A stretch of DNA of 64,000 nucleotides, taken from NCBI RefSeq assembly GCF_963667685.1, contig NZ_OY763930.1:1160501-1224500 (forward strand), read 5' to 3'. Both the position numbers and the translations under genes were made by a program. Within the stretch, counting starts at the first letter, position 1; the number at the start of each line of letters is the position of its first letter. A model generated the notes under the pieces. It was not told the DNA's origin, did not search any database, and saw only the letters and a program-made list of their open reading frames with translations. The DNA comes from Maridesulfovibrio sp. GTDB lineage: Bacteria > Desulfobacterota > Desulfovibrionia > Desulfovibrionales > Desulfovibrionaceae. Positions 28,915 through 44,209 of this stretch are shown piece by piece.

Positions 28915-29035
28915 AGGCAGGAACGTCTTGTACAATTAGTCGGAGCTTGTACTCACCCCCGGAACCTTTTCCACGTCCTTCATCCAAAAATTTCTGGATT
29001 TTCTTCTCGTCAAATGAATATTTTTTCCTAGCCAT
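28914..29035 (-). pseudogene. tnsA: tnsA fragment of a second, older Tn7-like element
   Basis: From the ATG at 29035 (AAGGAAGG upstream), about 40 codons read as the TnsA N-terminus: MARKKYSFDEKKIQ, then EGRGKGSGGEYK and VQDVP. This matches the intact tnsA product (EGRGNGHGPKYK, ARDVA) and Tn7 TnsA (EGRGQGHG, VQEVP) as recalled, but is clearly diverged from both. The rest of the gene is gone, replaced by the IS3 relic. It reads leftward, as tnsA does in the intact element, so it marks the right end of an earlier insertion. Confidence 0.75.
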
Positions 29036-29084
29036 AAAAAAGCCTTCCTTTTGGAAATGATTTTCATCATCCCAGAGGAAGGTC

Positions 29085-29154
29085 TTTTTTATCAAACTAG
29101 CTTATTTATCGGACTAATTTCAAATTTATCAGACTTTATTTTCAGTCCACGACA
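29085..29154. mobile_element. Relic right end of the older Tn7-like element
   Basis: Three TnsB-site-like repeats, TTTATCAAACT (29088), TTTATCGGACT (29105) and TTTATCAGACT (29125), are spaced 17-20 bp and followed by CAGTCCACGACA, ending in the ACA expected at a Tn7-type terminus at 29154. The core differs from the GTATACT core of the intact element, so it came from a different lineage. Confidence 0.6.
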
Positions 29155-29158
29155 AACC

Positions 29159-29307
29159 TGTGGGAGAACAATAAAGTTTTATACTAGGCTCTCCTCAAAT
29201 CCTCATTTCTCGTCGACCAAGTTCGGTGTTTCAAAAATAAAGTTGTATACTGGAGTTAATCCGCCTTGGAGAATTAAATCTTTTCGAACAATAAAGTGGT
29301 ATACTGG
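29159..29307. repeat. Transposon left end with three TnsB sites
   Basis: AATAAAGTTTTATACTAGG begins at 29170, AATAAAGTTGTATACTGGA at 29237 and AATAAAGTGGTATACTGGA at 29290, in the same orientation and separated by spacers. The 340 bp after them up to 29652 are very AT-rich and hold no recognisable gene, only presumably the promoter of the methyltransferase. Confidence 0.88.
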
Positions 29308-29652
29308 AGATGCAATACACCTACCTAAAAGAGGAGCCAAATCGCTTGCTTGGCCAGCAGTGGGAGTAGAATTAAATTTGTTCAATATATCAATATATTA
29401 TCATTATATTTATGTTTGTTGAGAACTACAACATTGGTGTGTATGATAAAGTTTGCATTCGACAGCTTAATCAACTAAAAAGCTCACTCCGAATATTTCT
29501 CTATTTTTTAAAATGAAATAAGCATCTTTTAACTTATGTTATTTTTATATAAAAATACGGAATTCTATGTCAAATAGGCGAAAATTTTCATGTTAAATAG
29601 TTAGCTCTTATATGTAGTATGAGTAAAATAGATGACAATTTTAAGGTAAGCA

Positions 29653-31281
29653 ATGAAGTTTAAGTCAGATCAAAGTGTTCAAAAGTTAAGAGGTGGATAT
29701 TATACGCCACAAAACTTAGCTGACTATATTACAAAATGGGTATTAAGCCAAAAACCACAGAGCATATTGGAGCCTAGTTGTGGGGATGGTGCTTTTATGC
29801 AAGCACTAAACAACAATAATTGCGATAAAAACACAAAAATTTCTTGTTTTGAACTTTTTGATCTTGAGGCCCAAAAGACAATAGAACGTTGCAGCAATCT
29901 TGGATTTAAGAACTATTCTGTAACTGAGGGTGATTTCCTAAAATGGGCAAACAAAAAAATTGAGCAAAAGAGTATTTTATTTGATGGAGTGTTAGGTAAT
30001 CCTCCTTTCATTCGCTATCAGTTTTTAGAAAAAGATTTTCAAGAACAAGCGGAACTTGTCTTCAAGCATCTGGATCAAAAATTCACCAAGCATACAAACG
30101 CATGGGTTCCGTTTCTTTTCTCGGCGTTGGCTTTGTTGCGAGCAGGAGGGCGTATGGGAATGGTTATACCCTCTGAGATCATTCATGTAATGCACGCTCA
30201 ATCCTTACGAAGTTATCTTGGTAAACACTGTTCAAAAATTGTAATAATTGATCCAAAAGAAATTTGGTTTGAAAACACACTTCAGGGTGCTGTGATTATT
30301 CTTGCTGAAAAAAAACAGAATAGAGAACTTCCCTCGGAAGGGGTTGGAATTGTGAATGTTAATGGATTTGATTTTTTGCAAGAAAATCCAGAGGAGCTAT
30401 TTCGTAAAACACCTGGTATCAATGGAGAAACGATAGCTGGGAAGTGGACTAAAGCAATATTAGACCCAAATGAGCTTTCATTAATTAAAAATTTATTTGA
30501 GCATGAATCTGTATACCTATTCAAAGATGTCGCAAAAGTTTGTGTTGGAATTGTCACCGGTGCAAATAATTTTTTTCTGGTAAGGGATCAAATTGTTGAG
30601 CAATATGATTTGGAAGGATATTCGCATCCGATGTTTGGTAGAAGCCAGCATTGCCCTGGAATACTCTATGATAAAAATCAGCATAATGAAAATCGTAAAA
30701 AAGGTTTTCCCACAAACTTTTTATACATTGATGATGATTTTGATAAAATTTTGCAAGGTCCTAGGGAGTATATTTCGCGCGGAGAAGAGAGCGGATATCA
30801 TACTAGGTATAAATGTAAGATTCGTAAACCTTGGTATCGAGTTCCTTCTGTGTACAGTTCGGAAATAGGAATGCTAAAGCGCTGTCATGAGTACCCAAAG
30901 TTAATCTTGAATAGCATTGGAGCTTACACAACGGATACCGCTTACCGTGTAACTTCCCCATTCATTAGTCCCGAGAAACTAGTCTGCAGTTTTTTAAATC
31001 CGCTCACAGCGATTACTGCGGAATTAGAAGGAAGATACTATGGAGGCGGAGTGTTGGAGCTGGTACCATCGGAAATTGCCAAATTACATATTCCTATTGT
31101 TGAAAATTTTGATTACGATTTAAAAAAAATTAACCGACTGGTCAAAGAGGGACGGTCAGAAAAAGTTATGCATGAAAATGGCAAGGCCATTATGGAGTCC
31201 TTGGGATATTCTTCGCTTGATAATGAATTATTAATAAAAATCTGGCAAAAACTAAAAGCACGAAGACAGAGAAAATTATAG
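29653..31281 (+). CDS. N6-adenine DNA methyltransferase (cargo, modification partner)
   Basis: A 542-residue stand-alone methyltransferase. [11 protein letters not shown] (motif X-like) and [10 protein letters not shown] (motif I, SAM binding) come first, and the catalytic motif IV is NPPFIRYQF near 117-125. The C-terminal half resembles the target-recognition region of Eco57I-class methyltransferases. It lies tail to tail with the type IIG enzyme gene, overlapping it by six bases. A separate methyltransferase beside a fused nuclease-methylase is the Eco57I arrangement and would protect both strands of an asymmetric site. The base composition is markedly more AT-rich than that of the tns genes and the chromosome, indicating a separate origin. 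Confidence 0.85.
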
Positions 31282-34200
31282 GGAGTTGGGAGTAGGTTGC
31301 AGTCCAGCGTATAGATCTTCTACAGATGGAATCTTGATGTCAAATTCTCCTAAATCGAAGAGATCCTTGAGGGCTTTATCCATTTCATCTTTCTTCGAGG
31401 CGAAAAGTCTTTTCAGTATAATTTTTTGTCGTTCCTCAGCATTCTCAATTTGCCCAAAAAGATCATTCATTTCCTCTTGTAACGCTGCAATCCTATTATG
31501 TTTATCTTTTTGCTTTTTATCTTGGAAATTAATTATAGGGACTGGCATTCGTTCCTGTATTTTTGTCCCACGAGCCACAAATCCACCACGAAAAATTTCT
31601 CCAAAAATTGAAGCAAACCATTCGACATATTTTGAAGATAGCACTGCTTGAATATAAAAAATAGAATATTGAGTTTCTTCCGGGACATTGATAATATTAT
31701 ACCCCGCAGTCCCTCCTGACGAAACAAAAGTTCTATTTGTGTCTATTGAATACTTATGGCCATTTGATAAAATACCAACAATAATTTTTCGGGCAACATC
31801 ACAATTCTCTAGAGCCTGACTTCTGCCATACCTATACCATTCTTCTTTTGTTGTTGGAGTTGGTTTTATAGAGCGCTTATTGTTATCTAGATAATCTTTT
31901 ACAATATGAAGAAACTCAAAGAGACAAGGAAAATTACTTTTCAGCTTGTCAAAACTGACAAGCTTAATTTTTTCAGCTCTTTTCTGATAAGGATAAATAA
32001 CAAATGAGTTTGGCTCGACATTCTTATAAGTATAAAAATTGTCATGCCCCGAACGATCTGTTTCGTAGTATGGTCTGGTTAATTCTTCTTCTACTTTATA
32101 CTCCATTCCATTATACTGAAAATAAACAAACCCATCTTTTGATTTTATCATTTTGTGAATATAGTAAGGATTAGCACTAGTTTGAATGCCGTTTGCTATA
32201 TTCTTTTTTCCAACAACCTCAGCCAGTGTTGCTGAACGTTGTTGTATCCGATCTAGAATTAAATTTGTTTCTTTTTCTAATATCCAAGTGTCAGAACTTA
32301 ATTGATCCATTTTATATTTGTTAGCCGGATAATTTTTTTTATCATCTGTAAACCATGCTTTTAAATCAGTGACTTCACAAAAAGAAAATTCATGTTGTGA
32401 TGATTTTTTAAGAAAAAGCAAACAGGTATACGTTGTTTTGGATTTAAATATTTGGTTAGAACCAAATGAAATTACACCACACAAATATTTGTTGTCCGTC
32501 AATAGTTTACGTAACTTTTGCCCTGCCCCAACCTTCATGAATTTTGAAGGAAGAATATACCCTAGACATCCACCATCTTTTAATATTTGCATTGAGCGTT
32601 CTACAAATAAAAAATATTTATCAAACTGTTTAAAGGCTGACTTGTATTTTTTTTTATAAATTGAATACTCTTTAGGGGTAATTTGTTTCATGTGCTCAGT
32701 AGCCATATACGGAGGATTTCCAATTACAACATCAAACTGGTAATTATTGATGTCAAACGGATTTACTGAAAAGAGATCTTCATCTTTAATGTTGTCTTGC
32801 TGATCAATTAAACTGTTCCCAAAAAGGATATTCTTATCTAAGTTTGGAAGTATTGGAGTTACCATACCAATGGTTTCTTTTGACTCTCCTTCTATTAATT
32901 TCAGCAAGAGGCCAAAAGAACATGCGCTAACAGCGTTATAATCTTTGTCTACTCCATAAATACACTTACATAAAACTTCTTTCTTGACAGAGAACTTCAA
33001 CTTATACGTGTAAGTAGAGATTTGCTCAACCTTTGAATGATCATGCAATAGGTAGTAGTCGATAAGTAAATCCTGAACAACTTGAAATGCCTCAATTATA
33101 AATGCACCGGACCCACAAGCAATATCTGCAATTTTTAAATCAAATATTTCCTTAGCTGTTTTTTCTTTACAGTACTTGACTAATGTGTTTTTTATAATGC
33201 TCTTTATGATATGACTTGGTGTTGTGACAACATCACGCTCTACGTGTTCAGCTTTTGGCAAAAGTTTGATATTCTTACTATCTGTAATATGAACTCTTTC
33301 ACTTAAAAATACTTCATAAATATTCCCAAGTATGTCCGATGAAAAAACTGAGAATGAATATGTACTCTGTGGATAATAAAGATCGCTTATTATTTGCCAA
33401 ACAGCGGAATTAGAATTATTAATTAAGTCTTGAATATGTTCAAGCGCGAACAGCCCAGAATTGTATTTTTTATCAGCCTCTTGAAGTTTGCAAATTAGCT
33501 CTTTGCAGCTCTTTTTTTCTGCAAAATGATAAAGATCTTCATACCTTTCAAGATCACGATCCTCGCAAACTCGCAAAAAAACGATACTATTTATGTAGCT
33601 CTGAGTTAAGTCATTTAAGCTGGTATCGTCTAAGTCTTTCTTTATTTTTACAAAATCATTAGCAAGTAAAATTCGCCAACTATTAATCTGCTTAAGAAAC
33701 AAATCGTCGATACTAAATTTTGAAATTTTAAGTTCAATTTCAGACCATTCTTCGTCAAATTGTCCAGAATAAACACTTTCCCGCCCAATCAACAACTTAA
33801 TTTCTTCAAATTTATCAACTAACTCTGTGTAATGATATAATTTAACTCTCGATTTTGTGGAGTCGTCATCATCTTTAACTGGATTTGAAGTGTCATATAT
33901 AGCTGTGTATTCAAAATTGGATAGGACGGATATTTTTAGTTTTGCTGTAAAGCCGTATCGTCTAACTTGCTTTGCGGATTCAGAAGATACTGCGATGTTA
34001 ACATTTGGCTTCTTCGCTTCAACAAAAAATTTTCTTTTAGAAAACAGTCTGAATGTATAATCTGGCCTTTTTGTGTTCTCTCCAGAGCTATTTAACGCTT
34101 CCTCAACAAGCACTTCTCGTTCATTTGTTGGCTTACCAGACGAGTTGACAATGTCCCAACCTAAAAGAGCAAAAAATTGATCAAGAAAATCAGTTCTAAG

Positions 34201-34290
34201 CTGGGTTTCATTATATTTAGAAGAACGATAATAATTCAAATCTGAGCTAAATTTATCAACCAAACTTTGTAGCAAGTGCGCTTTACCCAT
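31276..34290 (-). CDS. Type IIG restriction-modification enzyme (fused nuclease-methyltransferase)
   Basis: About 1004 residues from the ATG at 34290; a longer GTG start at 34389 is possible but adds 33 unconserved residues. The N-terminus carries a PD-ExK nuclease signature (RPDYTF, then FFVEAKKP). The middle has SAM motif [11 protein letters not shown] and catalytic motif [12 protein letters not shown]; the last third matches TaqI/Eco57I-type target recognition with a C-terminal coiled stretch. It should cut unmodified DNA a fixed distance from its site, defending the host and stabilising the transposon. AT-rich like its partner. A BREX PglX is the main alternative, but the nuclease motif and lack of BREX neighbours argue against it. 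Confidence 0.85.
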
Positions 34291-34582
34291 ATGTGTACCA
34301 GTGTCTTGTAAAATGATGACAGACGACAGTGAGTAAAACACTATGTCATCTTGATGTATCCGCGATTCTATATACACAACTACACCCACTGTCTAGTATG
34401 GCTAACCCAGATTATTTTTTCGCCACTTCCATATTCACCAAACTGGCAAATATAAAAAATACGACATAGACAGCTTTAGCTATCCCTATGGAAGATGCGG
34501 AAATTTGGTGGTTTGAGATCTAGTCTGATCATTACAGACCTTTTCATTACAAAGAAAGTTGGAATAAAGTAAAATTCAACAA

Positions 34583-36196
34583 CTAATATCCTAATAAATC
34601 CAGAATTCGCCCATAAAACCTACTAGCCCATCCCGCAACAGTATCAGGAAGCAATAACCCTTTATGCCCCCCAGCACATTTTGGATGCCTGATCCAGGTA
34701 TGCCCGCTCTTCCCACAAACTTGATCCAAAACATCCAATGGCCAAACAAGAGAACCACGAACAAGCTCGTACATAATCCGTTTTAGATCATCATCCCAAT
34801 TTTCAACTATACTAAGAGCCAAAACCCTTGTAGACATGGCTTTTTCTGCGTCAGAAGTGTCGACCTCAAGAAGAATAACATGCGTATCTTCTACCAGTAG
34901 CTCAATAACAGCCAAGCATCGAGGATTACCGTCAGAAAGGCGATGCTTTGAACAACGTGAAACAGGAGGTAATTTAATAATTCGATCGGAAACCACTGTA
35001 CAGTCATTATTGGCTGTCACCAGCTCTATCATCTCTGAAAAGCACTTGAATTTATTTCTAAAAAGATGCTCGTTCTTCGTTAGATCTTCAGTGATATCCC
35101 AATCAACTCCAGTACGCCCATTTCCTGCAATAGGCTCCTCTGAACTGGCATCAATGACATGACCCTCTCCTTCTGCTCCGTTTGGAAGAGAAGAGCTGAT
35201 TTTCCTTTTTTTCTCAGTAACTCTATTTGTTACAAAAGCCTTCGTGAATTCGGATTCGACCTTTTCCCCCTGAATTATCCGCCTACTTCCGTCTGCATTT
35301 GCAGGTTCAGCATCATGCAAATGATATCCCTCAATATCCCCGCTGGGAGCTACGTGTATCTTACCATTTACTGATTCAGGGCTGGGAGTTGTAAATTTAG
35401 GATGATACATTTCAATTACCTCGGGAATATCGGCCTGAATTCCTCCAATTCTGACAATTTCATTTACGAAAAGTGACCTTGTACTCTTATCAAAGAGGCC
35501 ACGCACTTTAAAATATGCGTTAGGCAACTCAGGAGGATCAAATCTAAAATTCCACTTTTCGTATCCTCCCGACCGGTAGCCCGTCTTTTTCTGCCACCAA
35601 CTTATACTTCTGTATGACCTACGAGCTTGAGCATCCAGCAATATCCAGCTCAAAAAATTACGGCTTTTCAACTCATTAAAATGCTTTAAAGGATATCCTG
35701 CGGTAGGCATGACATTGATATGCGCTATCCCATTTTCCCAGTCACGAATAACTTGAAAATCAAAATCCAAAACATCCGACTCCATTGCTGTTCTTGCCAA
35801 ATATCCATCACGAAGAAATAGAACACGAGCAAGTTCAAACTGTGGCAAATAGACTGTTTTACCGTTGGCAATCGAAAAAACAAAACAGAACTGATCTCTA
35901 TCTTTTGCTGTTCGTTTCATTGGACAATCTCTTATTCGGCAAACATCCCAATTCGTTGTGCTGGCTATATAGAAGTAATCTTTCCAACCTCTACGTTCAA
36001 GTTCTCCTTGTGAACGAAGTGTTCTTTTTCTAGATAGAATCGGTGCGTATGAAATCGTTAGTGAACTTTTTTTCTGCTCAGAATCAAACTCAAGATTAAT
36101 CCCCCACATTGTCCCGCCAATTTTACAGAACAACAGCCCAATGCCTTCAATTACAGCATCAGGGTCCAATAAATGAAAAGTATAATTATCAGACAT
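34583..36196 (-). CDS. tnsE: Transposition protein TnsE
   Basis: A 537-residue protein in the place and at almost the length of Tn7 TnsE (538 residues as recalled), overlapping the end of tnsD by eight bases. TnsE binds the sliding clamp and 3'-recessed DNA to direct insertion into conjugal plasmids and replicating lagging strands. Its C-terminal region (ADNDCTVVSD-type strands, then KCAGGHKGLLLPDTVAGWASRFYGRILDLLGY) matches the conserved TnsE C-terminal domain. Its presence shows that the element keeps both the attTn7 route and the mobile-plasmid route. It is the last gene of the tns operon. Confidence 0.85.
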   Translation of the reverse strand: MSDNYTFHLLDPDAVIEGIGLLFCKIGGTMWGINLEFDSEQKKSSLTISYAPILSRKRTLRSQGELERRGWKDYFYIASTTNWDVCRIRDCPMKRTAKDRDQFCFVFSIANGKTVYLPQFELARVLFLRDGYLARTAMESDVLDFDFQVIRDWENGIAHINVMPTAGYPLKHFNELKSRNFLSWILLDAQARRSYRSISWWQKKTGYRSGGYEKWNFRFDPPELPNAYFKVRGLFDKSTRSLFVNEIVRIGGIQADIPEVIEMYHPKFTTPSPESVNGKIHVAPSGDIEGYHLHDAEPANADGSRRIIQGEKVESEFTKAFVTNRVTEKKRKISSSLPNGAEGEGHVIDASSEEPIAGNGRTGVDWDITEDLTKNEHLFRNKFKCFSEMIELVTANNDCTVVSDRIIKLPPVSRCSKHRLSDGNPRCLAVIELLVEDTHVILLEVDTSDAEKAMSTRVLALSIVENWDDDLKRIMYELVRGSLVWPLDVLDQVCGKSGHTWIRHPKCAGGHKGLLLPDTVAGWASRFYGRILDLLGY

Positions 36197-37709
36197 GATA
36201 TCTCACTTCCTTCAAGTACAACTCAGCTTCAACACGAATTCGTTCGTCACTCAGACCGGCCAATCTCAAAATTTTCCATCTGCGTTTGGGTTCACAGCCA
36301 GCGTCAAGACGACGGATAGCAACGGCAATCCTCCGAATCTGATAGTCCGGCACCGATTCACAATATTTCCCAAAAAACTCAACAGTTAATGGCAGTTTAT
36401 CAAGATTTGCCTCGACAGTTGCTTTCGGTCCGAGCTGATCCAAATACCAATTTCTGGAACGCCTCGGCCCTTTCATATCGTTTAATGCCCTTTGATGTAC
36501 TTCTTCCAAAGTAATCAAAACGTCCTGATCTCGTTTTCCCCAGTCAACGCGCTTGTTTTCAGAATGGGATGATCGATGATACTGCCCATTAATTTTCATC
36601 AACCAAGCACGATCATTTCGATATAGCCACGCATAAATTGCTCCGCCACCACAAGAACGAGCCTTTTTCGCCCCGAACTTTTTGAGGAACGCTTCCCACG
36701 AGCTGCGCATATCGAGAATTTCTTGACTGGGATTGTCCTCTAAAAGATCCACAGGACAGCTCACAATGCTCTTTGACTCTAAACTGGGCACATTGCTCAA
36801 GACTGAGTGGAAATCCCATTCTGACCCCAGTAAAGCTTCTAAAACTACAATGTGTTCAAGATAGCTAAAAGACTTCCGATGCTTTCGGAAAATTGATTTT
36901 AACCAACAAGAATTTGAATTGATGGATAGTGAAAGGCTTCTCTTTACGAGCCATTGATTCGTCCAGCAGACAGTGACTTTTTCAGAAACCTTATCATGCT
37001 GAACTTTCTTACCCTTTGCGCAGCCTGTATCTCCTGCTAATCGTTTGTAAAAAAGTCCCCACTGCTCAAGTGAAGGAGATGCTACTGGAGGCATGTTCAG
37101 CAGCTCATGAATACGCTCTGCAACTCGGACAGCTTCTACACGGCAGGACTTAATCGCTTCTCCAACACAAACATCCGCCCTCAAGGCAAAAAACTGATGA
37201 CGGTGCCGACCATGTAATTCTATTCGAGAGTTACGTAATGGCCCATGATGTGGGCAAACATCCGCACCTGCGACCTGCCAGCCACGCTTCCAATAGTATT
37301 CTCCAAATTGAGCAAGCTGCTGATCAAGACACTTAGGGCAATATCTTAAAAAACGAATTTGCTTTATTCGGGAAGCTGCTGCTCCCAAGGCAAGATGGAC
37401 GGCTCCTTTAGATTGTCCGGCCATCCATCTTAGGCACTGGATTCTTCGATCTTCCGGGACAAAGGGAGCGTAAAGAGGAAAAAGGGTATGTTTGTAAATG
37501 ATGTTCGTGACATCAAGACTCAGGGAGTGTGGGTACAGATCTGAAATTTGTTTGGTATGGGATGGCAGGTCCGGGGTCGCTATAACTTTACGATTGGCAA
37601 ATACTTCATCTAGGAGTTGCTTAGGACTCATCAGTCCTGCATGCACACCTGCCCGCGCCACTGTGCTGTAGATAAGCTCATCGGGGTATGGCACAGGAAA
37701 ATCAAGCAT
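36189..37709 (-). CDS. tnsD: Target selector TnsD (TniQ family)
   Basis: A 506-residue TniQ-family protein, close to Tn7 TnsD in length. It opens with FPVPYPDELIYSTVARAG, the TniQ N-terminal signature. A zinc-finger motif with RYCPKC and ADVCPHHGPL near residues 125-155 supplies the Cys-Cys-Cys-His ligands. TnsD recognises the 3' end of glmS, which agrees with the position of this element 25 bp past the glmS stop. It lies 10 bp after tnsC and overlaps tnsE. Confidence 0.9.
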   Translation of the reverse strand: MLDFPVPYPDELIYSTVARAGVHAGLMSPKQLLDEVFANRKVIATPDLPSHTKQISDLYPHSLSLDVTNIIYKHTLFPLYAPFVPEDRRIQCLRWMAGQSKGAVHLALGAAASRIKQIRFLRYCPKCLDQQLAQFGEYYWKRGWQVAGADVCPHHGPLRNSRIELHGRHRHQFFALRADVCVGEAIKSCRVEAVRVAERIHELLNMPPVASPSLEQWGLFYKRLAGDTGCAKGKKVQHDKVSEKVTVCWTNQWLVKRSLSLSINSNSCWLKSIFRKHRKSFSYLEHIVVLEALLGSEWDFHSVLSNVPSLESKSIVSCPVDLLEDNPSQEILDMRSSWEAFLKKFGAKKARSCGGGAIYAWLYRNDRAWLMKINGQYHRSSHSENKRVDWGKRDQDVLITLEEVHQRALNDMKGPRRSRNWYLDQLGPKATVEANLDKLPLTVEFFGKYCESVPDYQIRRIAVAIRRLDAGCEPKRRWKILRLAGLSDERIRVEAELYLKEVRYHV

Positions 37710-37719
37710 AATGAAACAC

Positions 37720-39339
37720 CTACTGCATCCATGAACTCATATCAAAGATAAGTGAATCCTTTTTCAACTGGCCGTATAAATTCCCACCACTGGACTGAGA
37801 GAGCTTAAAACGCAAGGCATTAGAATCAAGCGTGTGCCATTTTGATTGGGGTACGGATTTTACCCTTTCTGGCTTCGGTTTGCATTCTTCGACCTTGAGG
37901 TCATTTGATTCGTACCAATTGAGTATTATCCTCATCAATTTATGTGGTGAAATGCCTGGATGCTCATCAAAAACTCTTTCAACAAGCGGAACTATTCTTG
38001 ATTCATCACAACCTAATCTTAAAAGTTGATTATGAATCCTTTCCGCCTCTCTATTGCCTCCATAGGTATTTCTAGAGGAATCATTTTTTTTCAAGGATTC
38101 AAGAATGAAAGACGACATTTCAAGAGTTCTTTGCTCTATATCCGGCAAAGTCAAATCAGAAAATTGAGATATTTTTTCAGGGTCTTTTGATCTAAGGGCT
38201 CCCAACATCGAATGCACAGGCTTCAAATCATCGTAATAGACTTGTTCCATCAGCTTCGGAGTGAGTCTCTCTGTCTTTGTAACGATCGCGCGCATTTGTG
38301 CTAAAACGAATAATTTTACGACAATATCATGTACTCCCTGAGACAAGTCGAACCAACAATCGCGAAGCTCTTCACTTAGGACATCATCATGTTTTCTAAG
38401 CCACTGGAACCTCCAAAGCGCGTCTGTAAAACCAACCCAAGTGAGCGATGAATTCTCCATAGGCTCCCACAGCAGAGAACCAAGCCCAGCACCTCTGCGA
38501 GCAGAACGCAAATCATTTTCAAAAATATCTCGGGCTTTAGGAGTTCCCACAAAGACAACTGGCAGGCCGATTGTATTTACCATGGTTACGAAGAAACTCA
38601 GCATATTGTTAATCCCGCCAGAATTCTTCCTGCTCAGATGCTGAATTTCATCAATTATCAAAACTCCCAAACCGTGTTTATTCGCGACTTGAGGGATCAG
38701 ATTTAATAGTGTTTCAATATTATGTCTTTTCTTTACATATCTGAGTTCATAGGTTGTCCCTAGAACTCGGTCTAACTCTCGAAAGAAATTGATACAAAGG
38801 TTCTTAATTCCACCGTCATGTGGACAGTCTATTCTTAAATATACAACTTGAGTAAAATTGTACTTTTCATGGAAAATAACTTGCGGATACGTTGAGAGAA
38901 TTCGCCTAATAGTTGTTGTTTTGCCACACCCCGGCACACCGGTCAGTAACAAACTAGAAGCTGTCGACTCCGGACCTTCAAAAACACGAGCCTCAAGGTC
39001 GCCACTCATGATTCTCTCATATCCGTTTTGCATATGTGTTTTATGAGAGCCGTCAGCCAAATTTCGTCCGACATACCCTTTACGTATCAAGATGGATAAT
39101 TTCTTCTCTAGCTTCACATGCGTGGAAAGAGGCTGGAAGAAATCATCAAGAAGCGACGAGATCATATGGATTCGATCTATGTCCTCCTCATCAACATCCC
39201 GTACATCATAATCAACTTTTCCCGTCAGATTCTTTTGAATTTGTTGCAAGGACATATTGGGCGGCAAAGCTTCAATACTAGGGTTGCCTTTATATCTACG
39301 TACTGTTGATTCCCTATAAACAGCATCAACCTTCTTCAT
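37720..39339 (-). CDS. tnsC: AAA+ regulator TnsC
   Basis: A 539-residue ATPase (Tn7 TnsC is about 555). Walker A is GVPGCGKTTT near 137, Walker B is VLIIDEIQH near 225, with a sensor-type stretch VFVGTPKARDIF further on. It links the target-bound TnsD or TnsE complex to the TnsAB transposase and carries target immunity. The start codon directly follows the tnsB stop with no gap, so translation is coupled. Confidence 0.92.
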   Translation of the reverse strand: MKKVDAVYRESTVRRYKGNPSIEALPPNMSLQQIQKNLTGKVDYDVRDVDEEDIDRIHMISSLLDDFFQPLSTHVKLEKKLSILIRKGYVGRNLADGSHKTHMQNGYERIMSGDLEARVFEGPESTASSLLLTGVPGCGKTTTIRRILSTYPQVIFHEKYNFTQVVYLRIDCPHDGGIKNLCINFFRELDRVLGTTYELRYVKKRHNIETLLNLIPQVANKHGLGVLIIDEIQHLSRKNSGGINNMLSFFVTMVNTIGLPVVFVGTPKARDIFENDLRSARRGAGLGSLLWEPMENSSLTWVGFTDALWRFQWLRKHDDVLSEELRDCWFDLSQGVHDIVVKLFVLAQMRAIVTKTERLTPKLMEQVYYDDLKPVHSMLGALRSKDPEKISQFSDLTLPDIEQRTLEMSSFILESLKKNDSSRNTYGGNREAERIHNQLLRLGCDESRIVPLVERVFDEHPGISPHKLMRIILNWYESNDLKVEECKPKPERVKSVPQSKWHTLDSNALRFKLSQSSGGNLYGQLKKDSLIFDMSSWMQ

Positions 39340-41430
39340 CTAACTGTCCTCACCATTGAAAAGTTCATCAATATACTCGGGATAACTATAGTCTTCTTCC
39401 TGAATATCCCCATTCAAAGAAAGAACCTTCGCAGGTTCATCATTACGTTTCTTTTCCGGCTTATAGAACGGGACATTCCTCTCAGTTTCTTTTTCTTGAA
39501 CTTTGTTGCCTTTGATTCCACGTATCCGCTCGGCGTTGCTCATATGCCTTGTGTCAGGACTCTTCTTTTTAGCAGATTTGATAAGACCGCTAACAAATTC
39601 TTCATGAAGTCGCTTTTGCTCAGCTTCCTCCTGTTTACTTTTAGCTATAGTCCGCTTTTGCGCATCCTTGACCTGCCACACATCCCAGAAAGAACTTCCT
39701 TGAAACTCTCTGAAGCAATCGGTTAACGAGCAGACCCAATAATCAGACTTTCCCTTAAAAGGAAAAAGGTAAACATTATCTGCTGAAGCAGGATCGTAGG
39801 CCGCAGACATCCCCACCGGTCTATGAACATCTTTTGATCTATGCATCCACCCACTTTTCATGAGTTCTGAGGAGGTATAATATACCCCAAAAACAGAAAC
39901 TCCCAATTCAGAAGCAGTGGCCTTGACTCTGGGCAACAAGCTAATCCTAAGAGCATCTTCTGAAGCTGTCCTTAATCGGCCCGTTCTATTTTGAATTCCC
40001 CAATTCCACAGAGACAAAGGAGTCATTGCCAGATCAGCAGGCATATCGACTTCTCTATCGTATTTCTCAAGCACGTGATATTTATTATGAAGCAGAACAG
40101 TAGACATAATTATCTGCTTAAATTCAAAAACAGACATTTCCGCTTCAGCCCGATAGTCTTTGCCCCCACGCTTTTTGATAAGTGTCTTCTCGACAACCCC
40201 CGGAGCAAATGGCTTGAATTCGGCTTGAATTGTTCCAAAATAGCGCTCAACAATTCCTTTTGCATCACCCCGATAGGGTGGGGCATTCTCAATACGCACA
40301 CCAAAATTACTTACAAGTGATTCAATCTGGTGCCCAAGCAACTCTCCCCTGTCCGCAAGGATTACGCTAGGCAGGCCAACAACGGGCCAATCTTCGTAAG
40401 TAACATCCTCAAAACCGAATTGCTTGCACCACTCAACCTTGTCAGTCATTGCCGTAGCAAGAGCCTGCATAGCGGTTACGTATGATGGGGATTCAAATCC
40501 CACATAAAATCCCGCAACCATTCTGCTGAAGACATCGATAACCATGTAGATGACCGGCCGACCGACAATATTTACTCGATCACTGTCCGAAACGAGATAA
40601 ATATCTGCAATTGTAGCATCGATCTCAAAACGGGAACCTGGCCCCAAAGCATTGCTAGTTGCAGTACCTATTAGCTGGCGTGTGTCTTTATTGTATTCAA
40701 TAGAGCTGGTTCGTTTTTTTAACCTTTCTATCTGACTATATTCACGCTGATAAAAATACTGCATCTGTCTTTTGGTGGGAACTTCTGAGTCCAGTATCTC
40801 CGGAAAAATATTTTTATATAAAGTTTTGAACCTTCTATGAGCATAAGCAATGCTAATCTTTTTATCTTTCAAAAGGTATTTATCAATTGTTCTTCTGAAA
40901 AGCTGTTCGACTTGCTCATCAATTACAGCTCCCACACCTGAAGTATATTTCCGGGGCCTTCCCAATTTACCCGAAGCCTTCTTCTTTTTTCCCTTACCCC
41001 CTGAATTCTTATAGTCAGGAAGTAAAGCATTGGGTGTTTGCCCGCGCTGCCAGTATCTGCGCAAGGCTATGTATATACTACGTTTCGTAGCCCGACCGTC
41101 AGACACAATTTCATTTATATACTCAGCCCTAACTTTGGGAAGATAGCTACGGGGATCAGTAACAATATCCAAAATCAGCGTATAATTTTTGTCTCGTTTT
41201 TTCTGAGCAGAGGAACCTGGCTCAGGAGTTTCAAACGCTAATTGTGCAAAAGGATCTTCAGCACGAAGAAGTACACCGTCCTCTAAAGCTATACGTAACT
41301 CTTTAGTAAGCATAACCACGGGGAAGGCCTTTGGGGCAGCCATATCAATCCAAACGATTTGTTCCGATAAAATTTGCAAAACACGGAACAACTTACTTTC
41401 ATATTTGAGAACTTCATTAACTCTAAACAT
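39340..41430 (-). CDS. tnsB: DDE transposase subunit TnsB
   Basis: A 696-residue transposase (Tn7 TnsB is 702). The DDE triad is visible as RFEIDATIAD (first Asp), VILADRGELLG (second Asp) and GDAKGIVERYFG (Glu), in the order and spacing of retroviral-type integrases. N-terminal helix-turn-helix domains should bind the GTATACT repeats at both ends; the Lys/Glu-rich C-terminus would contact TnsC. TnsB cuts and joins the 3' ends. The start overlaps the end of tnsA by eight bases. Confidence 0.93.
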   Translation of the reverse strand: MFRVNEVLKYESKLFRVLQILSEQIVWIDMAAPKAFPVVMLTKELRIALEDGVLLRAEDPFAQLAFETPEPGSSAQKKRDKNYTLILDIVTDPRSYLPKVRAEYINEIVSDGRATKRSIYIALRRYWQRGQTPNALLPDYKNSGGKGKKKKASGKLGRPRKYTSGVGAVIDEQVEQLFRRTIDKYLLKDKKISIAYAHRRFKTLYKNIFPEILDSEVPTKRQMQYFYQREYSQIERLKKRTSSIEYNKDTRQLIGTATSNALGPGSRFEIDATIADIYLVSDSDRVNIVGRPVIYMVIDVFSRMVAGFYVGFESPSYVTAMQALATAMTDKVEWCKQFGFEDVTYEDWPVVGLPSVILADRGELLGHQIESLVSNFGVRIENAPPYRGDAKGIVERYFGTIQAEFKPFAPGVVEKTLIKKRGGKDYRAEAEMSVFEFKQIIMSTVLLHNKYHVLEKYDREVDMPADLAMTPLSLWNWGIQNRTGRLRTASEDALRISLLPRVKATASELGVSVFGVYYTSSELMKSGWMHRSKDVHRPVGMSAAYDPASADNVYLFPFKGKSDYWVCSLTDCFREFQGSSFWDVWQVKDAQKRTIAKSKQEEAEQKRLHEEFVSGLIKSAKKKSPDTRHMSNAERIRGIKGNKVQEKETERNVPFYKPEKKRNDEPAKVLSLNGDIQEEDYSYPEYIDELFNGEDS

Positions 41431-42240
41431 TAATCGCCTCCAAAACAGAAATATCGTCCACGAAACGAATATCCGCAGGGGTTATCTTTCTGAATGGAAT
41501 ATTCACGTCAAAAGATAGCAATCGACTCGCTAAAAGTTCTCTAATTTCAGCCAGCGACTCCCCGGCTCCATGGTCATATTTAACATCCAGTAATTTTGAA
41601 ATTTGAATTATGGTTGAGGAAGGGTTCTTCGCAAAATGGTGAGAGTAAAAGGTCAATTGCTCAGCCAACTCACTAAATTTATAATCCCTTTGCTGGTCAG
41701 GGTATAACCATTCAATATTCTGAGAAGCTGTTCGTGAAATCTCTTTTTCAGTAATTATACGCCATGGAACATTTTTATATTCCCAATAGCGTTGTTCCAG
41801 CTCAAGCTTTTCCACGGTTCTTGGATCGCTTAGGTCTTTAGCGTATTTTGCTTGCAGTACAAATTTCGGAAGAGCTGGATCAGAAGAGTTGACCAGAAAA
41901 TCTGAGGACATGACTTGGCAAGACTCTGAGACTTGGGGATGTCTGATACCGACATCTCTTGCTAGTTCAAGTGTGACTTCTTGCTGTAATGGAAACTGCT
42001 CACGGATATCAATTGTCTTGTGACACCAATCAAGACTAAAAAAACAGCCAGCTCCAGATCGGAAAAAAGATGATGAATTCGGCGGGATTTGTGGCCAAAG
42101 ATTCGGTGAGACCTACCTTTGGAAGCAACATCCCGAGCAGTTAGCCAAGGCTTATACTTAGGTCCATGGCCATTCCCACGCCCTTCTTTGATCCACTTCT
42201 TGATCTTTGCCTCTGTTAAGCCATTACTTCTTTTTGACAT
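41423..42240 (-). CDS. tnsA: Endonuclease subunit TnsA, read through a -1 frameshift
   Basis: Two overlapping frames encode one TnsA. Frame one runs from the ATG at 42240 for 68 matching codons (EGRGNGHG, GRSHRIFGHK, SDLELAVF), then continues for 24 unrelated codons to a stop at 41962. The second frame enters at 42037 with SLDWCHKTIDIREQFPL and runs to 41423. A -1 shift at T_TTT_TTA (42043-42037) joins them into 272 residues (Tn7 TnsA has 273). The catalytic Glu63 falls in the first part and Asp114, Gln130 and Lys132 in the second, all at the Tn7 numbers, so neither part alone could cut the 5' ends. This is either programmed frameshifting, a one-base T loss, or a sequencing error in a seven-T run. 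Confidence 0.9.
42037..42043 (-). promoter_or_regulatory. Candidate -1 ribosomal frameshift site in tnsA
   Basis: Read on the minus strand, zero-frame codons are GTT TTT TTA, so the heptamer T_TTT_TTA is in the exact X_XXY_YYZ register. After slipping -1, the next codon is AGT (Ser69), the correct TnsA frame. A 6-bp stem, GTCTTG (42036-42031) with CAAGAC (42020-42015), begins directly after the heptamer, closer than most stimulatory stems. Confidence 0.6.
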
Positions 42241-42244
42241 AAGA

Positions 42245-42292
42245 AAGCCGCTCCTGTTTTATACCTTATTTTCAGTCTAACAGAAGCGGCTT
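42245..42292 (-). promoter_or_regulatory. tnsA leader hairpin hiding the ribosome-binding site
   Basis: AAGCCGCTCCTGTT (42245-42258) and AACAGAAGCGGCTT (42279-42292) are 14-bp inverted arms with one mismatch and a 20-base loop. On the tnsA transcript the proximal arm contains AGGAG, ten bases before the ATG at 42240. Transcripts entering from glmS would fold this stem and block tnsA translation; a transcript starting inside the right end after the distal arm would not. Confidence 0.65.
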
Positions 42293-42360
42293 TAGTATAC
42301 AACTTTATTGTCTAGTATACGACTTTATTGTTCAGTATAAAACTTTATTGTTCTCCCACA
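42257..42360. repeat. Transposon right end with four TnsB sites
   Basis: Reading inward from 42360: TGTGGGAGAACA, then AATAAAGTTTTATACTG, AATAAAGTCGTATACTAG, AATAAAGTTGTATACTAA at about 20-bp intervals, and a degenerate fourth copy (AATAAGGTATAAAAC) overlapping the tnsA leader. The tnsA promoter must lie within these sites, so TnsB probably represses it. Confidence 0.9.
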
Positions 42361-42385
42361 AACCCTAACTCATAACCACCGCATC
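42361..42385. other. attTn7 insertion segment downstream of glmS
   Basis: Exactly 25 bp separate the transposon end from the glmS stop codon, as in E. coli. No glmS terminator is left in this stretch, so glmS transcripts run into the transposon. The TnsD-binding sequence should lie in the last codons of glmS. Confidence 0.85.
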
Positions 42386-44209
42386 CTACTCGACAGTTAC
42401 GGACTTGGCGAGGTTTCTCGGCTGGTCTACATCTTTGCCGAGGTAATCTGCTGTTTCGTAAGCGAAGAGTTGCAAGGCAGGGAGAGCGATAAAGGTGTTC
42501 AGCGGTCCCCATACTTCAGGGAGGGACCAGCGCTCCTCAACGTCAAGTTCGACTCCCGCATTGGTCAGAGCAATAATCTCGCCGCCACGGGCCTGAACTT
42601 CCACGAGGTTTGATTTTACCTTAGGAAAAAGATCATCGTTGAGGGCCATGGCAAAGGTTGGAAACTTTGGGTCAATCAGCGCGATGGGACCGTGCTTCAT
42701 TTCCCCGGAAGCGTAACCTTCCGCATGAATATATGAAATTTCCTTAAGCTTAAGCGCTCCTTCAAGGGCCAGCGGAAAATAAAGTCCGCGTCCGAGATAG
42801 AAAAAACTGTGCGCTTCTGAATACTTGCGGCTAAGTTCCTGTGCCCTGCTGCGCATGTCTGGAAGCGCCGCTTCAAGGATTGAAGGAATATTGCGTATAT
42901 CCATACTTGCCCTGCCGTAGATTGCAGGATCAATCACACCCTTCTTCCTACCCCAGTAGAGAGCCAGCAGCAAAAGCGCAGTCAACTGACTACACATTGC
43001 CTTGGTTGAAGCAACGCTGATTTCCGGCCCAGCCTGAGTGTACATGACGTAATCAGACTCACGGGCAACACTGGAACCGACCACGTTACACAGACCGATA
43101 ATAGACAGACCTTTTTCCTTGGCGAGTTTGATTCCGGCAAGGGTATCAGCTGTCTCACCGGACTGACTGATAGCAAGGGCGACTCCGCCTTTGGAGAGTA
43201 AAGGATCGCGATAACGGAACTCGGAAGCGATCTCCACTTCCACCGGGATCTTGGCCCACTGCTCAATAAGGTATTTGCCCCACAATCCGGCGTGGTATGA
43301 AGTACCGCAGGCAATAATATGCAACCTTTCCGGCGGCTCCATTCCTTCAACTTCAGGAAGGACAATTTCGTTGTTGGCCTGATCCACGCGGCCCGCAAGA
43401 CAGTCGGAAATGACCTTAGGCTGCTCGAAAATTTCCTTGATCATGAAATGCTTATGGCCGCCCTTTTGCGCAGCCTGCACATCCCAGTTGATGGTCTTGA
43501 TTTCCTTTTCCACCAGCTCAAGGCTCTTGGCATCAAACACTTCCCATGACGAAGAAGTAATTTTAACCAGCTCGCCGTCCTCAATGAAAACCACTTCGCG
43601 GGTGTAAGGCAGGAAAGCGGGGATATCGGAAGCAACAAAATTTTCACCGACCCCCACACCCATAACCAGCGGGCTGGCAACACGGGCGGCGTAAACTGTT
43701 CCCGGTTCATCAATGGAAACTACGGCAATGGCGTATGCGCCCTCAACCTGCTTCAAAGCCCATGAAACGGCTTCGAGCATGGTGGGATTGTGTTTACGGC
43801 CCTCGGCAATGAGATTGCAAAGCACCTCGGAATCGGTATCCGAACGGAACTCGTAACCTTTTGCAAGCAGCTCGGTCTTGATTTCCTGATAATTCTCAAT
43901 AATCCCGTTATGGATCATGGCAATATTCTTTTCATGATCCAGGTGCGGGTGGGCATTACGCTCGATAGGTACGCCGTGTGTGGCCCAGCGGGTATGGCCG
44001 ATGCCGAAAGTGGAATTGGTAATATTCTTCTGAGCCAGTTTTTCATCAAGGGCGGCCAGTTTTCCTTCAGCACGGACCAGCTCGATTTCCTTGTTCTGTA
44101 TGGTAGCCACGCCCGCTGAATCATAACCACGATACTCAAGTCTTCTAAGGCCTTCCACAATAAGGGGAACAGCAGGACGGTGTCCGGCATATCCTATAAT
44201 TCCGCACAT
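42386..44209 (-). CDS. glmS: Glutamine-fructose-6-phosphate aminotransferase
   Basis: A 607-residue, two-domain enzyme that makes glucosamine-6-phosphate for peptidoglycan and lipopolysaccharide. Cys2 (MCGIIGYAG) is the glutaminase nucleophile; the N-terminal domain spans about 1-235 and two SIS sugar-isomerase domains follow (ACGTSYHAG, ISQSGETADT). The C-terminus ends DQPRNLAKSVTVE, the conserved peptide whose codons TnsD recognises. It is in an operon with rdgB 33 bp upstream. No glmS ribozyme is visible in that short gap. Confidence 0.97.
   Translation of the reverse strand: MCGIIGYAGHRPAVPLIVEGLRRLEYRGYDSAGVATIQNKEIELVRAEGKLAALDEKLAQKNITNSTFGIGHTRWATHGVPIERNAHPHLDHEKNIAMIHNGIIENYQEIKTELLAKGYEFRSDTDSEVLCNLIAEGRKHNPTMLEAVSWALKQVEGAYAIAVVSIDEPGTVYAARVASPLVMGVGVGENFVASDIPAFLPYTREVVFIEDGELVKITSSSWEVFDAKSLELVEKEIKTINWDVQAAQKGGHKHFMIKEIFEQPKVISDCLAGRVDQANNEIVLPEVEGMEPPERLHIIACGTSYHAGLWGKYLIEQWAKIPVEVEIASEFRYRDPLLSKGGVALAISQSGETADTLAGIKLAKEKGLSIIGLCNVVGSSVARESDYVMYTQAGPEISVASTKAMCSQLTALLLLALYWGRKKGVIDPAIYGRASMDIRNIPSILEAALPDMRSRAQELSRKYSEAHSFFYLGRGLYFPLALEGALKLKEISYIHAEGYASGEMKHGPIALIDPKFPTFAMALNDDLFPKVKSNLVEVQARGGEIIALTNAGVELDVEERWSLPEVWGPLNTFIALPALQLFAYETADYLGKDVDQPRNLAKSVTVE

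Follow-up and report, generated by a model that had tools for sequence, protein, structure and literature searches.

A broken tnsA gene at a T_TTT_TTA heptamer in a Tn7-type transposon beside glmS of Maridesulfovibrio

The transposon beside glmS and its two-frame tnsA

The window, that is, the whole 64,000-nucleotide stretch of DNA analysed here from Maridesulfovibrio, probably a sulfate reducer, holds a Tn7-type transposon of 13.2 kb (29159..42360, minus strand), read from the sequence and inserted beside glmS (42386..44209, minus strand), the host gene that adjoins the insertion (attTn7). Each end consists of TGTGGGAG followed by TnsB-type repeats; the terminal 27 bases of the left and right ends match each other, and six 21-bp repeats are present at the ends at no more than 3 mismatches, versus 0.04 expected. 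Besides the broken tnsA, the minus strand carries tnsB (39340..41430, 696 codons, its start overlapping the end of tnsA, with matches to Mu-transpos_C and rve that are both below the curated cut-off), tnsC (37720..39339, 539 codons), tnsD/tniQ (36189..37709, 506 codons) and tnsE (34583..36196, 537 codons). These four genes are of full length, which bears out the description of the element as otherwise complete in an earlier note on this DNA. The C-terminal part of TnsC contains the Tn7_TnsC_Int domain (PF11426); the C-terminus of TnsC is able to contact TnsA (PMC11406308), and PF11426 is presumably the part that makes this contact. The cargo comprises an Eco57I-like restriction-modification protein (31276..34389, minus strand) and an Eco57I-type methyltransferase (29653..31281, plus strand). 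No drug-resistance gene was found among the ORFs scanned.

The order tnsABCDE between ends with TnsB sites, the place beside glmS and the alignment of the TnsA pieces to the Tn7 structure (see below) are all shared with Tn7 itself (TnsABCDE, glmS/attTn7), from which the element differs in having tnsA present but in two frames and in its Eco57I-type restriction-modification cargo. A perfect 5-bp target duplication is not seen, with AACC on the left (29155-29158) and AACCC on the right (42361-42365), one base short; an old insertion can lose its target duplication, and the assignment to Tn7 therefore rests on the other features. Directly to the left of the present element, positions 28988-29158 hold the remnant of an older Tn7-type element: one transposon end and the beginning of a gene that resembles tnsA, whose ATG was placed by eye at 29035 on the minus strand. 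DNA similar to this remnant occurs in the islands of two related genomes, G149 (a second species of the genus) and G179 (which has the closest intact tnsA found).

The zero-frame part of tnsA (41965..42240, minus strand) starts with an ATG at 42240 and runs for 92 codons to a stop at 41964-41962. Its first 67 codons align to residues 1-67 of Tn7 TnsA, including Glu63, and it is out of frame after the heptamer T_TTT_TTA (42037..42043, minus strand). The heptamer stands in the X_XXY_YYZ register, formed by the last base of a Val codon and the following Phe and Leu codons (GTT TTT TTA, 42045-42037, minus strand), and is overlapped by a run of seven Ts (42044-42038). The part in the -1 frame (41423..42037 with its stop, minus strand) aligns to residues 69-259, which include Asp114, Gln130 and Lys132; this frame is free of stops from 42112 to 41426, and the stop that closes it (41425-41423) overlaps the beginning of tnsB at 41430. 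With the Tn7 TnsA structure (PDB 1f1z) as reference for both pieces, the N-terminal one ends at residue 67 and the C-terminal one resumes at 69, so that the break falls on a single residue. A -1 step would give (815+1)/3 = 272 residues, a length obtained by arithmetic and not from a joined protein. Glu63, Asp114, Gln130 and Lys132, which we take to be the catalytic residues of TnsA, are thus kept in their Tn7 numbering on both sides of the break, with no further stop in either frame. On all these points (the two frames, the register, the predicted length and the residue numbering) the earlier note is confirmed.

Two other changes in this gene stand out. Gly106, present in 7 of the 8 other aligned TnsA proteins, in G149 and in Tn7 TnsA, has changed to Glu in the lineage of the window. 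Clustered changes relative to G149 and G179 are also seen at 41747-41762 (codons 161-165), with the look of a small replacement tract.

The broken gene is the only TnsA_N match in the host genome (PF08722, E up to 0.001). The region from tnsA to tnsB (40000-42361) has no second copy there either, the only other match being 27 bases that belong to the left end of this same transposon.

The break point in related TnsA genes

The earlier note had put forward a programmed -1 frameshift and had proposed that conservation of the heptamer and of both frames in related elements would support it; this comparison went against the proposal. The site codes for Val-Phe-Leu within a conserved stretch, Asp-Leu-Glu-Leu-Ala-Val-Phe-Leu. 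Among the named TnsA loci compared (the best 80 of 244 confirmed matches, two of which appear to recur in the order set), all 80 read without interruption at the break point, their open frame extending 58 codons or more upstream of it; an X_XXY_YYZ heptamer stands there in 8 of these 80 best matches and the exact T_TTT_TTA in 3. In the closest intact relative found, that of G179 (79% protein identity), the seven Ts are likewise present, as GTT TTT TTG, and the frame is uninterrupted. As T_TTT_TTA is present in intact genes, it follows from the codons at this site and is no predictor of a break.

A TnsA match was found in 21 of the 348 genomes of the order, the own genome included, and a class-level search returned the same tally (348 genomes, 21 with a match, identical match rows); in a phylum sample 6 of 395 genomes had a match, the own genome again included and the others with distant TnsA only. 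Of the 24 distinct loci rows from the order and phylum searches that fitted a sequence motif, those of the window and G149 alone carry T_TTT_TTA. Neither the heptamer nor the two-frame layout is thus conserved among orthologues, the sole sharer found being a G149 copy that is dead (see below). The plasmid search (438 records) gave only relatives below 60% identity, and an exact back-translated peptide scan with the C-terminal TnsA of the window found no relative in genome contigs or viral contigs. Breaks or truncations affect 5 of the 11 tnsA loci of the genus, as judged from the match table with two G193 pieces counted as one.

In-register X_XXY_YYZ heptamers occupy 90 of 17,420 codon positions in 39 window ORFs (chosen from 89) and 36 of 3,851 in the six intact ORFs of the element. 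T_TTT_TTA itself is found in register three times in this ORF set, each time in an intact element gene. A heptamer is therefore uncommon at any given codon (about 0.5-0.9%), yet the conserved Val-Phe-Leu favours one here. Long T runs may be prone to indel mutation, which PMC4066793 offers as one possible reason for their rarity.

The copy in a second species and selection after the split

G149 carries the same break, with the same seven Ts and flanking bases. It has four tnsA matches on one contig near glmS (196910-198732), at 199080, 226499, 228014 and 244006, and the one with the shared break is the farthest from glmS. The island (G149:C4:180000-279999) presents several Tn7-type tnsA genes in a row; the gene adjoining glmS is uninterrupted, and broken ones lie at a greater distance. 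Between the window and G149, tnsA together with the front part of tnsB is 94.5% identical and the final part of tnsB 95.3%, against 77.0% for glmS, 75.3% for a Ham1-like gene and 64.1% for a kinase (over 1,130 of its 1,557 bases). A break common to both copies would predate their separation, and the gap in identity between tnsAB and the host genes points to a transfer of the already broken segment from one species to another. Independent, identical breaks in the two genomes are possible but less simple. About 85 unchanged bases surround the heptamer in this comparison; they do not make it a special stretch, as about 100 are unchanged elsewhere in tnsA (codons 120-155).

The tnsA of G149 has acquired two more stops and an Asp114 to Asn change, and its tnsB shows a one-base insertion, 35 and about 120 missing alignment columns, a further one-base gap and a nonsense codon; judged by its sequence, this copy is dead.

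Changes were assigned to the two lineages with G179, a single outgroup at high synonymous distance, which makes the result suggestive only. In tnsB (643 codons) the counts were 13N:16S for the window and 17N:20S for G149 (11 unassigned sites left out), and neutrality was rejected for both (P = 7e-5 and 1.4e-5, respectively). The tnsA counts were 10N:5S for the window and 8N:5S for G149, two of the latter N being nonsense (three unassigned sites left out); here neutrality was not rejected (0.22 for the window, 0.13 for G149), the pooled lineages being borderline (P 0.067). An omega of 0.15 was rejected for tnsA (0.012 for the window, 0.046 for G149) and one of 0.3 fits (pooled 0.13); the long-term ratio between the tnsA of the window and that of G179 is about 0.14-0.16. 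A direct comparison of tnsA with tnsB falls short of significance (one-sided Fisher test, 0.15 in the window lineage and 0.074 with both lineages), and leaving out codons 161-165 gives 6N:3S for the window tnsA, with the reading unchanged. On these modest statistics, tnsB appears to have stayed constrained after the split and tnsA looks relaxed.

Origin of the break and routes of spread

A small length mutation probably broke tnsA at a Val-Phe-Leu site whose codons read T_TTT_TTA by chance, and the break would then have been inherited, with no conserved expression device. Such an inherited mutation ranks as the most likely account; rescue by slippage is possible, an error of sequencing improbable, and recombination could have spread the segment instead. 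The inherited mutation is also the one of the two null explanations of the earlier note that fits. A small indel at the T run would have broken tnsA and left tnsBCDE at full length. The broken tnsAB segment would have spread between species afterwards, and full-length TnsA from its own gene would have been scarce or absent when the element moved; candidate routes are replicative movement, TnsA supplied in trans by a co-resident relative, a trickle of slippage at the T run, and recombination. Points that count against this account are the key residues kept in the tnsA of the window, the lack of any further stop in its two frames, the Tn7_TnsC_Int domain kept in TnsC, a well-placed GGAG and a 6-bp hairpin right behind the heptamer, along with the non-significant comparison of tnsA with tnsB and the borderline pooled test for tnsA. 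In addition, TnsABC and D are described in PMC2918618 as all required for attTn7 insertion of Tn7. The absence of TnsA might therefore stop Tn7 itself, and the element may depend on some TnsA, made by slippage or supplied by a co-resident element.

In a variant of the inherited mutation, which does not exclude it, homologous recombination between the Tn7 islands at glmS would have been the only means by which the segment spread, and no broken element would have transposed. Identity to G149 drops sharply past tnsB, at the tnsB/tnsC junction (inside 37720-41430, the span of the two genes), and again within the right end, a pattern that suggests mosaic elements and favours this variant, as do the several Tn7-type tnsA pieces in one G149 island; the glmS beside the island is just 77.0% identical, though, which indicates that the glmS flank was not exchanged. 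Exclusive spread by this route is conceivable but doubtful.

Productive slippage, in which ribosomes step -1 on U_UUU_UUA, or RNA polymerase adds a U on the T run, and the little full-length TnsA made sets the balance between cut-and-paste and replicative transposition, is unlikely, even if some low-level rescue of TnsA is possible. It draws support from the slippery heptamer standing in register exactly at the frame change, from the conserved catalytic residues, from the apparent spread of a broken segment whose tnsB is still constrained, and from a GGAG located 7 nt ahead of the seven-T run, within the range of 6-17 nt used in PMC4066793. Many IS elements make their transposase in a similar way, by low-level frameshifting or transcriptional slippage (passages of PMC5009743 and PMC3711429). 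The -1 programmed frameshift transposases of the IS1/IS3 type also have an in-register -1 heptamer at the frame change of the transposase gene, but here the heptamer and the break are not conserved, no stable stimulatory structure is seen and the relatives are mostly single-frame. The heptamer is a by-product of the codons, as its presence in intact genes indicates, and the only sharer found, the dead copy of G149, has AGAG in place of GGAG. No stable structure was found in the 78 bases that begin with the last base of the heptamer (z +1.62, with 193 of 200 shuffled sequences folding at least as well); directly after the heptamer a 6-bp hairpin starts, the usual spacing of a downstream structure being 5-8 bases (PMC4066793). 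PMC5009743 reports that U_UUU_UUA is far less prone to shifting in E. coli than A_AAA_AAG, that a shift on it can place Phe or Leu, and that high-efficiency polymerase slippage takes place on runs of nine, against seven here. The motif is also absent from a table in PMC4066793 of 18 underrepresented motifs that exceed 0.10% without a stimulator.

No report of programmed frameshifting in tnsA was found in titles and the starts of abstracts, mostly from outside the subscription literature. Passages of PMC3384475, PMC5034289, PMC2918618 and PMC8649781 describe none, and the word frameshift is absent from the main text of PMC8649781. The tempting case for a programmed frameshift in tnsA is weakened, and its canonical look is explained by a slippery word made of conserved Val-Phe-Leu codons. 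It is quite improbable that tnsA is tolerant of such indels thanks to a heptamer already present in some intact relatives. The other null explanation of the earlier note, a sequencing or assembly error in the homopolymer, would suit a break that sits at a seven-T run but is very hard to sustain, since the separate genome of another species has the identical seven Ts and flanks.

Under the inherited mutation, this would be a natural Tn7 lineage that apparently went on spreading once its tnsA was no longer uninterrupted, with the constraint on tnsB continuing; it may serve as a natural test of whether replicative movement is open to elements with the full TnsABCDE set. Cointegrates are the main product of CRISPR-associated Tn7-like systems in which functional TnsA is missing (PMC8188705), and branches that lack tnsA exist, typically with resolvases (passages of PMC8649781). 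The element resembles the TnsA-inactive or TnsA-less ones (the TnsA D90A mutant of Tn6677, type V-K CAST and Tn5053) in a predicted shortage of 5'-strand cleavage, from which cointegrates would be expected. It differs from them in that no resolvase family, a usual though not universal associate of replicative TnsA-less elements, was recognised in its six main ORFs beside tnsA, and in that the tnsA pieces, the C-terminal domain of TnsC, TnsD and TnsE all remain.
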